From NCBI GenBank assembly GCA_002841885.1, contig PHBE01000005.1, positions 62,001 through 126,000 of the forward strand: DNA of 64,000 bases. Direction: 5' to 3'. This DNA is from Deltaproteobacteria bacterium HGW-Deltaproteobacteria-18 (lineage in GTDB: Bacteria > Desulfobacterota > Desulfovibrionia > Desulfovibrionales > Desulfomicrobiaceae). Shown one piece after another: positions 56,068-63,686 of the stretch. Positions within the stretch are counted from its first letter, which is position 1; every line of letters starts with the position of its first letter. The position numbers and the translations under genes are program-made. The notes below the pieces were generated by a model that was given only the letters and a program-made list of their open reading frames with translations, was not told where the DNA came from and did no database searches.

Positions 56068-56742
56068 CTACCAGTTGGAGTCGGCGAAGGGGTCCTGCGA
56101 TCCACCGGCGAAACCGAAATCGGTACCAGCGGCAGTTTCGGCCGGGGCGCCTGCGGCTTCGGCAGCGGCGGGAGCTGCTGCACCGGCGGCAGCGGCAACA
56201 CCGGCAACGCCGGCAACAACCACACCGGTCTTCTTCACTTCTTCAACTTCCTTCAGCAGGGCTTCGAGCTTGCCGGTGAACTCGACAATACGGGCTTCAG
56301 TGGTCACGAACAGAGCTTCGGCTTCGCCCTTCTTCTGTCCTTCGAATTCCTTGACCTTGGCGCTCAGGGCCGCAATCTCGGCATCCTTGGCAGCCAGGGC
56401 CTTGGTCAGTTCTTCGACCTTGGCGCTCTTGGCGTTGATCTGGCCTTTGTAGTCGGCCAGTTTGGCGAAGACTTCGTCCACTTCGGCCTTGGCCTTGACA
56501 GGCATGGGCGCGACGGAGACGGACTGGCCCAACTCGACCATCTGCCCCTTGGACATCTTGGTCAATTCAGGATGCTGCTCATAAATCCATGCCTTGGCAA
56601 GAGCCGCGGCAAAAGGAGTGGAATCGCCATCCAGGTCTTTCTGGGTCAGATAGCCCAGCATTTCGGCAACGGAAGCGTTGCCATCACCCTTCAGGTAGGC
56701 CACAAAAGTATCCATGGGAAAAATCTTGCGAGCTTCAGACAT
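56068..56742 (-). CDS. qmoD: QmoD-type coiled-coil protein, apr-qmo operon
   Basis: A 224-residue protein of unknown function. It is the promoter-distal gene of the operon, in the position of DVU0851 (qmoD) in D. vulgaris, where deletion work pointed to a role in sulfate reduction; homology is by position and not computed here. The N-terminus (residues 1-75) is compact and acidic. Residues 85-170 are predicted coiled coil by heptad-like Leu/Ala/Val spacing (KVEELTKALAAKDAEIAALSAKV). Residues 172-205 are a low-complexity Ala/Pro/Gly stretch, and the tail is DPFADSNW. It follows qmoC by 15 bases. Confidence 0.8.
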   Translation of the reverse strand: MSEARKIFPMDTFVAYLKGDGNASVAEMLGYLTQKDLDGDSTPFAAALAKAWIYEQHPELTKMSKGQMVELGQSVSVAPMPVKAKAEVDEVFAKLADYKGQINAKSAKVEELTKALAAKDAEIAALSAKVKEFEGQKKGEAEALFVTTEARIVEFTGKLEALLKEVEEVKKTGVVVAGVAGVAAAAGAAAPAAAEAAGAPAETAAGTDFGFAGGSQDPFADSNW

Positions 56743-60290: not shown

Positions 60291-61532
60291 CTACCTCCCT
60301 CTCACCGTCTGGATCGCTTTCATCGCTGCCCCGGTGGCAGACTGGGCCGACTTCATAACGTCCAGAGGTTGTTTGGCACAGCCCGCGGCAAAAATACCTT
60401 TTTCCTCCCCTCCAACGATGAACCCTTCGGCATCAACCGGGACATCTACAGGCAGGGAAGCGCCGGCCAGGCTGGGCTGCATTCCTGTGGCCAGAACCAC
60501 GAGATCGAAACGTTCGACAGACTTGGAGCACGTCACCGCATCTTCCACGGTAACCCACACGTCATCGCCTGCTTTGTCCTGTTCGACAGCAGCGACCTTG
60601 CCTTTGACGGCAAAGATCTTTTCATCTGCCAGAATCTTCTTGGCGAAATTGTCGTAGCGGCCAGGAGTCCGCAGATCAATGTAATAGATTGTCACTTCAG
60701 CGTCAGGATACTGTTCACGAACATATTGTGCCTGCTTCAAGGAAGCCATGCAGCAAATATAGGAACAATAATGGAGATGGTTCTCGTCGCGAGAGCCAGC
60801 GCACTGCACGAAAGCGATCTTTGTGGGCACACGGCCGTCGGAAGGCCGAAGAATCTTGCCGTTCGTCGGACCGTAAGGTGATGCAAGGCGTTCCATCTGC
60901 ATGTTGGAAATGCAGTTTTTGACCGCGCCCGCGCCCAGATTTGACAGATTCGTCACATCATAAGGCTTCCATCCTGTAGCGATAATGATGGAGCCAACGC
61001 TCAAGGTGATGCTCTTTTCTTCCTCTGTCAGATCAAGATAGTCGCATTTCTGGACTTTGCTCTTGTCAGAGTCGCTCAAGCTGGCCTTGTCCACAACATA
61101 ACGCTGCGGGAAGGCAAAAGGCGCATCCATGTAAACGGGTTTGCGCGTAGCCAAACCGAACTCGTAGTCGTTGACAACTTCCGTGGAAAGATCGTCGCAC
61201 AAATCGGAAAGATCAGGGCTGCTGGGGCCAGCGTAGCGCGGTTTGATCTGTACCGTAACCTCGTAATTTCCAACGGTGCCGTCTACCTTGGTCACTTCGG
61301 CCAGGGTAAAAAACTTCACATTGGGGTTGTTCTTGATCCGCTGATACTGAATTTCCAAACCGCATGAAGGTGGACACAGCTTCGGGAAATATTTGTTCAG
61401 CTGCATAACACGTCCACCCAGAAATGGGGTCTTCTCGATGATGAAGACCTCATGACCGATCTCAGCGGCCTCGAGGGCGGCGGTGAGTCCTGCGAAGCCA
61501 CCACCGATGACAAGTATGCTGTTGCTAGCCAT
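60291..61532 (-). CDS. qmoA: Quinone-interacting oxidoreductase subunit QmoA
   Basis: A 413-residue HdrA-like flavoprotein that is thought to contact the APS reductase. The FAD motif ILVIGGGFAGLTAALEAAEIG is near residues 5-25 (in parts: VIGGGFAGLTAAL), followed by FIIEKTPFLGGRVMQLNKYFP. Cysteines LCPPSCGLE and HYCSYICCMASLKQA are in the HdrA positions. Start at ATG 61532 is set by the GGGAGGAAUCGA SD. It is preceded by the aprA terminator and a long hairpin. Confidence 0.96.
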   Translation of the reverse strand: MASNSILVIGGGFAGLTAALEAAEIGHEVFIIEKTPFLGGRVMQLNKYFPKLCPPSCGLEIQYQRIKNNPNVKFFTLAEVTKVDGTVGNYEVTVQIKPRYAGPSSPDLSDLCDDLSTEVVNDYEFGLATRKPVYMDAPFAFPQRYVVDKASLSDSDKSKVQKCDYLDLTEEEKSITLSVGSIIIATGWKPYDVTNLSNLGAGAVKNCISNMQMERLASPYGPTNGKILRPSDGRVPTKIAFVQCAGSRDENHLHYCSYICCMASLKQAQYVREQYPDAEVTIYYIDLRTPGRYDNFAKKILADEKIFAVKGKVAAVEQDKAGDDVWVTVEDAVTCSKSVERFDLVVLATGMQPSLAGASLPVDVPVDAEGFIVGGEEKGIFAAGCAKQPLDVMKSAQSATGAAMKAIQTVRGR

Positions 61533-61574
61533 TCGATTCCTCCCAGAGCACATAAGTTGAAGGCCGTAAAAATG

Positions 61575-61640
61575 AATAGAATGGCCCAAGCATAATCTAT
61601 AACTACCAGAGGTTACAGATCATGCATAGACCATTCTATT
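61575..61640 (-). ncRNA. Long imperfect hairpin in apr-qmo intergenic RNA
   Basis: On the minus strand the 66 nt form two 29-nt arms with an 8-nt loop. The arms start AAUAGAAUGG and end CCAUUCUAUU. By hand count 24 positions are Watson-Crick pairs, four are G-U wobbles and one is a U-U mismatch. It lies between the aprA terminator and the qmoA SD. No family is recognised; it may be a processing site, stabiliser or regulatory leader. Confidence 0.6.
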
Positions 61641-61650
61641 TCCTGATAGA

Positions 61651-61684
61651 GAAAAAAGGCTGCGGGATGGTCCCGCAGCCTTTT
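61651..61684 (-). terminator. Terminator-like hairpin after aprA
   Basis: On the minus strand a long perfect stem (AAAAGGCTGCGGGA / TCCCGCAGCCTTTT) with a tiny loop is followed by TTCTCTATC. It lies 10 bases past the aprA stop, within the apr-qmo operon, so it probably reduces qmo transcription. Confidence 0.85.
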
Positions 61685-61694
61685 GGCCCATAAA

Positions 61695-63686
61695 CTAGAC
61701 AGGGATGATCTGGTAGTAATGTTTCTTGAAGATCTCGGTTTCGCCAGTGGCCGGGTCGAACTTGGAGTTAACAAAGCACTTCCACTTGGCATCGTCCAGA
61801 CCCATGAAGTCTGCGCGATAGTAGAAACCGGGGTAACGGCTTTCCTGACGGAAACGAATGTGCTGCATGTGCAGACGAACGGTCCACAGTCTGTGATACT
61901 GCTCCCAGCAACGAAGCAATTCGTGCAGGTCGCGAGCCGCCAGTTTCTTGGAGTCTTCTTCCAGCATGTCGAGCAGAGCAAAGCCTGTGTCGAGCAGTCT
62001 GTCGGAAGTGGTATACAGGGTAGCGCAACCTCCGCCGTATTCATCGGTGCACTTGATGAGGCGCATCATGAAGTTGTTGGGGGAGATGTAGTTCGGGTTG
62101 ACTACCGGGTCAGTGGAAGCGCCCTTGAACTGCTCGTAGGTGTACCAAGGCTCGTAGATTTCCTTCTTCAGATCTGCAGCGGAAACAGCCAGCGTGGGCT
62201 TGAAATCCTTGTGATCCACAACCCAACGGACCATCTGCTTACCAACGATGCGGCCTTCAGCGTGAGAACCGGAGGAGAACTTATGGCCGGAAGCGCCAAC
62301 GCCGTCAGCACAAGTCCACAGACCGTTTACGGTGGTCATGCGGTTGTACACCTTGCCGTTGTCAGCCTTGACCTTGTACTCTTCGGGAACCCAAGGCTCG
62401 TTCGGACCGGAAACCCAGATACCGCAGCAACCGGAATGCGAACCGAGCAGGTAAGGCTCAGTGGGCATGATTTCGGAACCGCGCTCTTCGGGCTTGATGT
62501 TCATGGCGGCCCAGAGGTTGGCCTGACCAACGCACATATCCAGGAAGTCTTCCCAAGCTTCGGACTCAAGATGCTTCTGCTCGGCCTTGGACAGATCCTT
62601 GAAGGTGGTCTGCAGGGCGGTGGCGGTGTCCATGTAGATGGGGCCGCGACCTTCGCGCATTTCGCGAAGCATCATGTGGTTGCGCAGACAGGTCGGAATG
62701 ATGTGACCCTTGGCGTAACCGCGATCTTCGTAAGGCTTCAGCATGGCGCGGTTGGTGACACAGTAGTCTTCACCCTTGGCGTTGGTGGCTTTGGCCTTGA
62801 AAAGCAGGAACCATGCGCCGACCGGACCGTAACCGTCTTTGAAACGGGCAGGTACGAAGCGGTTTTCCATCATGGTCATTTCAGCGCCAACCTGAGCACA
62901 CATGGTGTAGGTGGAACCAGCATTCCATACGGGGTACCATGCGCGACCAAGGCCTTCACCAGTGGAGCGGGGACGGTAAACGTTGACAGCGCCGCCGCAT
63001 GCAACGGACATGGCGTTGGCTTTGATGACGTACACTTTGTTTTCGCGAACCGAGAAACCGACAGCACCGGCGATACGGTTGGGCGTATTGGCGTCAAGCA
63101 GCAGCTTAACGATGAAAATACGCTCCAAGTAACGATCGGAACCAAGGGCGTTCTTTGCGGCTTCAGCAACGATGACCTTGTAGGACTCACCGTTGATCAT
63201 GATCTGCCAACGGCCGGAACGGACAGGGGCCGCGCCGGTGCGCAGGGACATGCCCTCTTTCTTGGCCTGAGCGCCGTCCAGGTTCTTGCCGTCTTTCTTG
63301 ACCCAGCAAGGCAGGCCCCATTCTTCGAACAGATGAACGGAGTCATCCACGTGGCGGCCAAGATCGTAGATCAAGTCTTCGCGAACAATACCCATGAGGT
63401 CGGTGCGGACCATGCGGACATAGTCGTCGACATCATTTTCGCCGATATAAGTGTTGATGGCGGAAAGACCCTGAGCAACCGCGCCGCCGCGATCGACAGC
63501 AGCCTTGTCAACCATGAGAATCTTGATGTCGCCGCCAACTTTGTCGGCCCAGCGCACTGCCTCAAAGGCAGTTCCGCAGTTACCCATACCACCACCGACC
63601 ATAAGAATGTCGGTATCAATCTCAACGAGTTCGGGCTCTGCGCAGGCAAGGCCCTTGATCACGTCTTTAACAGGAATCTGAGGCAT
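61695..63686 (-). CDS. aprA: Adenylylsulfate reductase alpha subunit
   Basis: A 663-residue FAD enzyme that reduces adenylylsulfate to sulfite and AMP, with AprB, in the cytoplasm. The FAD motif ILMVGGGMGNCGTAFEAVRWA is near residues 27-46 (in parts: ILMVGGGMGNCGTAF). GAVGFSVRENKVYV, a family block, is near 207, and SGCCGIWVSGPNEPW near 410. Start at ATG 63686 has an AGGAGG SD. It follows aprB by 38 bases and is followed by a strong terminator-like hairpin before qmoA. Confidence 0.98.
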   Translation of the reverse strand: MPQIPVKDVIKGLACAEPELVEIDTDILMVGGGMGNCGTAFEAVRWADKVGGDIKILMVDKAAVDRGGAVAQGLSAINTYIGENDVDDYVRMVRTDLMGIVREDLIYDLGRHVDDSVHLFEEWGLPCWVKKDGKNLDGAQAKKEGMSLRTGAAPVRSGRWQIMINGESYKVIVAEAAKNALGSDRYLERIFIVKLLLDANTPNRIAGAVGFSVRENKVYVIKANAMSVACGGAVNVYRPRSTGEGLGRAWYPVWNAGSTYTMCAQVGAEMTMMENRFVPARFKDGYGPVGAWFLLFKAKATNAKGEDYCVTNRAMLKPYEDRGYAKGHIIPTCLRNHMMLREMREGRGPIYMDTATALQTTFKDLSKAEQKHLESEAWEDFLDMCVGQANLWAAMNIKPEERGSEIMPTEPYLLGSHSGCCGIWVSGPNEPWVPEEYKVKADNGKVYNRMTTVNGLWTCADGVGASGHKFSSGSHAEGRIVGKQMVRWVVDHKDFKPTLAVSAADLKKEIYEPWYTYEQFKGASTDPVVNPNYISPNNFMMRLIKCTDEYGGGCATLYTTSDRLLDTGFALLDMLEEDSKKLAARDLHELLRCWEQYHRLWTVRLHMQHIRFRQESRYPGFYYRADFMGLDDAKWKCFVNSKFDPATGETEIFKKHYYQIIPV

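Follow-up and report, generated by a model that had tools for sequence, protein, structure and literature searches.

A conserved and covarying RNA hairpin at the aprA-qmoA junction of Desulfovibrionales, a possible intercistronic processing or stabilizing element

In sum, we are almost certain that a selected RNA element, acting in the sense of the operon, exists at the junction of aprA and qmoA. It is a long hairpin whose helix is conserved and covaries, whose selection acts on the operon-sense strand, and which keeps a fixed place in tandem with the terminator of aprA and a minimum stem length. As to its role, we give an even chance to an intercistronic processing or stabilizing stem-loop that, by analogy with characterized systems, would become the 5′ end of the qmoABC mRNA and set the apr:qmo ratio.

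The window, the whole stretch of 64,000 nucleotides that was analyzed, carries aprA (61695 to 63686) upstream and qmoA (60291 to 61532) downstream of the hairpin, as identified from the list of open reading frames and from relatives (by gene context in the case of aprA); these and all features below are on the minus strand. The hairpin spans 66 nt (61575 to 61640) and forms an imperfect 29-bp stem with an 8-nt loop in the operon-sense RNA. According to the alignment and the conservation among 99 relatives, its 5′ arm AAUAGAAUGGUCUAUGCAUGAUCUGUAAC (61612 to 61640) carries the conserved block AAUGGUCU and its 3′ arm GUUAUAGAUUAUGCUUGGGCCAUUCUAUU (61575 to 61603) the conserved block GGGCCAUU; neither the sequence nor the length of the apical loop (61604 to 61611) is conserved, and relatives mostly have 3 to 11 nt. 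Beyond the aprA stop at 61695, a terminator scan revealed the intrinsic terminator of aprA, the first stem-loop of the tandem (stem, 61654 to 61684; T-tract, about 61653 to 61648), and a U-rich linker, the predicted cleavage zone, extends from the terminator stem to the hairpin (61641 to 61653). The rest of the 5′ untranslated region (61533 to 61574) contains the Shine-Dalgarno sequence GGGAGGA of qmoA, seen in the sequence and in relatives, about 30 nt beyond the hairpin. A preliminary description of the locus had given the same position and the same architecture of two 29-nt arms and an 8-nt loop, which proved exact, and had rightly placed the 5′ end just past the aprA terminator and the 3′ end about 31 nt before the Shine-Dalgarno sequence. 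Its reading of the mismatches was exact as well: among the 29 facing positions of the minus-strand RNA, 24 are Watson-Crick pairs, 4 are G-U, and 1 is U-U, and the four wobble positions read A-C or C-A on the plus strand. At the far end of the operon, directly after the presumed qmoC open reading frame, there is an Ala-rich open reading frame of 224 amino acids (56068 to 56742), probably the qmo operon's promoter-distal gene, as known in D. vulgaris.

The minus-strand RNA folds with −41.7 kcal/mol (z = −5.63), a stability reached by none of 200 shuffles. The fold of the plus-strand RNA is much weaker (−26.3 kcal/mol, z = −3.03). In the operon sense, the spacer of the window folds into one dominant hairpin. 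For comparison, aprA-qmoA spacers were taken from the genus of the window (Desulfomicrobium, 16 genomes) and from 71 loci in contigs. In an alignment of 28 hairpins, both sides change in 21 of 29 pairs, 90% of the cells pair, and the covariation score was reached by 0 of 500 shuffles. Covariation in relatives, which the preliminary description had put up for testing, was also evident against a phylogeny-aware null in which the substitutions of each branch of the gene tree were replayed at random columns (with a custom script, not R-scape): we counted 32 double compensatory changes, whereas 200 simulations averaged 6.7 and never exceeded 12, and the summed covariation was 474 versus 8 ± 49. Five pairs were individually significant among the 20 stem pairs alone and one after correction for all column pairs. 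Furthermore, G-U pairs outnumber A-C mismatches by 295 to 27 in 87 unique hairpins, scored in a way that is neutral as to strand, and are commoner in 84 of them; in 99 hairpins the counts are 318 and 36, and the ratio is about 5:1 without two wobble-rich core positions. Therefore, selection acts on the operon-sense RNA. With this asymmetry and the conserved, covarying helix found order-wide, the earlier proposal of selection on the operon mRNA rather than on a DNA operator holds.

Closer inspection of the stem base revealed a conserved block, AAUGGUCURAG...CUURGGCCAUUU, in the 99 hairpins. Three G-C pairs (GG/CC and C/G) are invariant in 99/99 and a U-G wobble is present in 88/99, with U-A or C-G in the other 11, figures that are somewhat inflated for the core because the hairpins were chosen by a pattern including part of it. 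The conserved stem base suggests an additional sequence requirement. At the foot of the stem, most base pairs are A-U or G-U, and the UUUU that follows RGGCC-A/G is conserved more strongly than the A's pairing with it. The sequence of the upper stem has changed, with compensating substitutions. Stem length ranges from 21 to 35 bp in relatives and is never below 21, three mis-assigned folds (L065, L103, and L189) being left out, and the distance from hairpin to qmoA is 22 to 47 nt in 77 of 98 relatives. One genus (L160, L166, L168, L171, L173, L187, L189, L190, and L193) has the hairpin about 165 to 190 nt before qmoA and another structured stretch between the two.

A hairpin at the same position is found in loci of Desulfomicrobium, Solidesulfovibrio, Pseudodesulfovibrio, Salidesulfovibrio, Halodesulfovibrio, and Desulfohalobiaceae. 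A covariance model built from the relatives had matches in 152 of 348 Desulfovibrionales genomes, or in 150 genomes of about 35 genera, the majority of those in the order, once G023 and G167, which gave weak off-target matches only, were dropped; G038 and G088 have one additional weak match each. The genomic context was checked in 108 of these 150 genomes, and in all 108 on-target genomes the order was aprA terminator, hairpin, and qmoA on the operon strand. There is one hairpin site per genome, nearly all second matches being due to the palindrome read on its reverse strand, and therefore no regulon; a trans-acting regulon was rejected on this ground. In the window's own genome, the only full copy is that between aprA and qmoA, and a repeat or mobile element was rejected because of this single copy. 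In Desulfovibrio in the narrow sense, aprA and qmoA remain in the same order but the hairpin is missing, and hence, some lineages can dispense with it. A search with its cytochrome c3 indicated that D. vulgaris Hildenborough was absent from the genomes covered (identity, at most 63%). In a 395-genome sample of the phylum, the model gave only one weak match outside Desulfovibrionales, and phylum-wide homology was rejected. What recurs outside the order is the architecture, not the sequence: in other families, up to 18 of 51 apr-qmo spacers have a post-terminator stretch whose fold beats nearly all shuffles, often as one long stem with an unrelated sequence.

Several of these spacers are worth describing individually. 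Near-perfect hairpins of 20 to 28 bp follow the aprA terminator at L257 and L259 to L264 from other Desulfobacterota families (e.g., TTTTCAGAATAAA...TTTATTCTGAAAA); their sequences are unrelated, as if the same architecture had originated independently. Related-looking, G-U-rich hairpins of 19 to 24 bp after the terminator in the aprA-qmoA spacers L246, L250, L253, and L265 may constitute another RNA family that covaries in its own right. The aprA-qmoA spacers L273, L278, and L282 have long hairpins made of short direct repeats, GGTGTAGGTGTAGGTGTAG or AAGTGTTAAGTGTTAAGTG.

The stem of the aprA terminator lies 0 to 37 nt upstream of the hairpin in relatives, mostly less than 24 nt, and the terminator score is above 0 in 90% of 98 relatives (median, 33.4). 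In several genomes (L196, L199, L202, and L209), the T-tract runs directly into the hairpin. A promoter scan of the window gave none between the aprA terminator and the hairpin and, since several genomes are also too tightly spaced, a separate promoter at this place was rejected. The terminator often adjoins the hairpin and leaves no room for a promoter, and therefore, the hairpin is presumably reached by read-through. In our model, the element acts in cis within the aprBA-qmoABC transcript. Polymerase that reads past the aprA terminator would transcribe the long hairpin, and an endoribonuclease would then cut in or beside the terminator-hairpin pair. Candidates are RNase III, which would cut in the stem, and RNase E/G or RNase Y, which would do so in the U-rich linker; the genome has genes for all three. 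The terminator stem-loop would remain as the 3′ end of a presumably abundant aprBA mRNA, and the hairpin would be the protected 5′ end of the qmoABC mRNA, about 35 to 45 nt before the start codon. Leaky termination combined with processing may thereby determine how much APS reductase is made relative to Qmo, its partner in the membrane. The stem of 21 to 35 bp is within the length of an RNase III substrate (a duplex of at least about 20 bp), and the location in an intercistronic operon spacer on the transcript strand is that of SRPS stem-loops. However, a purely structural stabilizer needs no sequence conservation in the lower stem, which is strong here, and the absence from Desulfovibrio in the narrow sense, with gene order intact, also speaks against this explanation. 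From the list of roles in the preliminary description (stabilizer, RNase III-type processing site, or leader binding a ligand or protein), we infer a processing or stabilizing element; a ligand-sensing leader is disfavored because the loops are variable and no alternative structure was noticed. Likewise, we have no evidence for a riboswitch, and the single dominant hairpin in the fold and the variable loops speak against it.

A known RNA family was rejected, since a search of Rfam gave no family at the gathering score and only sub-threshold matches to microRNA-type hairpins. A search of the open literature gave no description of the hairpin; one paper that came up (PMC3409199) contains no more than a reference to a qmo study. 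Stem-loops at the 5′ end are known to stabilize mRNAs, e.g., that of ompA in Escherichia coli, and RNase III processing hairpins occur in polycistronic mRNAs. Unlike the ompA stabilizer, the aprA-qmoA hairpin is internal to an operon and combines a long stem with a block of conserved sequence. With the RNase III processing hairpins it shares a short loop and a stem that makes about two helical turns or more (21 to 35 bp), but it differs by its conserved base sequence and by a cleavage that is predicted only. The closest documented analogue is IR4, an intergenic region of the clostridial cip-cel operon. There, a stem-loop with an A-U-paired base follows a small one, cleavage occurs between the two, and the downstream mRNA is protected (PMC10311766). 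Like IR4, our hairpin is intercistronic and operon sense, the large stem-loop with its A-U/G-U-paired foot follows a smaller one, here the terminator, and the operon encodes interacting proteins. The sequence of the upper stem of IR4 is reported to be unimportant (PMC10311766), whereas invariant G-C pairs and the wobble are located just above the foot of the aprA-qmoA hairpin, which is conserved order-wide with a sequence-conserved stem base. Furthermore, cleavage is established for IR4 and predicted for our hairpin, and the phyla differ. Such a sequence signature is not reported for SRPS stem-loops in the descriptions that we consulted.

The main rival to a processing or stabilizing element is a weak internal terminator that would follow that of aprA as the second of a tandem and would reduce read-through into qmo by its GC-closed stem and the partly paired U-tract after it; we regard it as unlikely. 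Consistent with such a function, the UUUU is kept better than the A's that pair with it, and 61% of the hairpins have a terminator score above 0. Moreover, internal intrinsic terminators with longer stems, fewer U's, and paired U-tracts set operon stoichiometry in clostridial ABC importers (PMC9045158). The aprA-qmoA hairpin resembles these in being an intercistronic stem-loop with a long stem and a paired U-tract but, unlike them, already has a canonical terminator just upstream and scores weakly as a terminator: the median is 4.7 versus 33.4 for the aprA terminators, the hairpin of the window scores −12.6, and the terminator scan makes no call there. In addition, a terminator has no need of a stem of at least 21 bp that is compensated up to its tip.

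It is imaginable that a sequence-specific RNA-binding protein or a dedicated nuclease reads the conserved stem base, including the U-G wobble, and makes qmo expression responsive to a signal. The three invariant G-C pairs and the frequency of the wobble (88/99) would fit with such a site. However, the site is single in each genome, no candidate protein was found, and the wobble is replaced by U-A or C-G in 11/99 hairpins, and therefore, we consider this improbable. It is likewise doubtful that the hairpin represents a new order-wide RNA family whose long double-stranded stem is recognized by sequence, the conserved base and the U-G wobble being read by a dedicated protein or nuclease, which would thereby balance APS reductase against Qmo in sulfate respiration. 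A DNA operator or another palindrome working at the DNA level, as an inverted repeat with conserved half-sites might suggest, is very improbable and largely refuted by the strand asymmetry (G-U over A-C about 9:1), the wide variation in half-site spacing, and the compensation throughout the stem between the half-sites. A minimal upstream open reading frame in the 5′ arm (AUG-GUC-UAA) was rejected because 17/99 hairpins have C in place of the U of the AUG, compensated by a G at the facing position.

Sulfate respiration, which makes up a major flux in the global sulfur cycle, has APS reductase and Qmo as essential partners, and our search of the open literature gave no explanation of what sets the amount of one relative to the other. 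The finding implies that conservation across a whole order, sequence signature included, is possible for an intercistronic hairpin of the processing type. The conserved RNA element at the apr-qmo junction, present in about 35 genera, provides a concrete and testable site for the control of the APS reductase:Qmo ratio.
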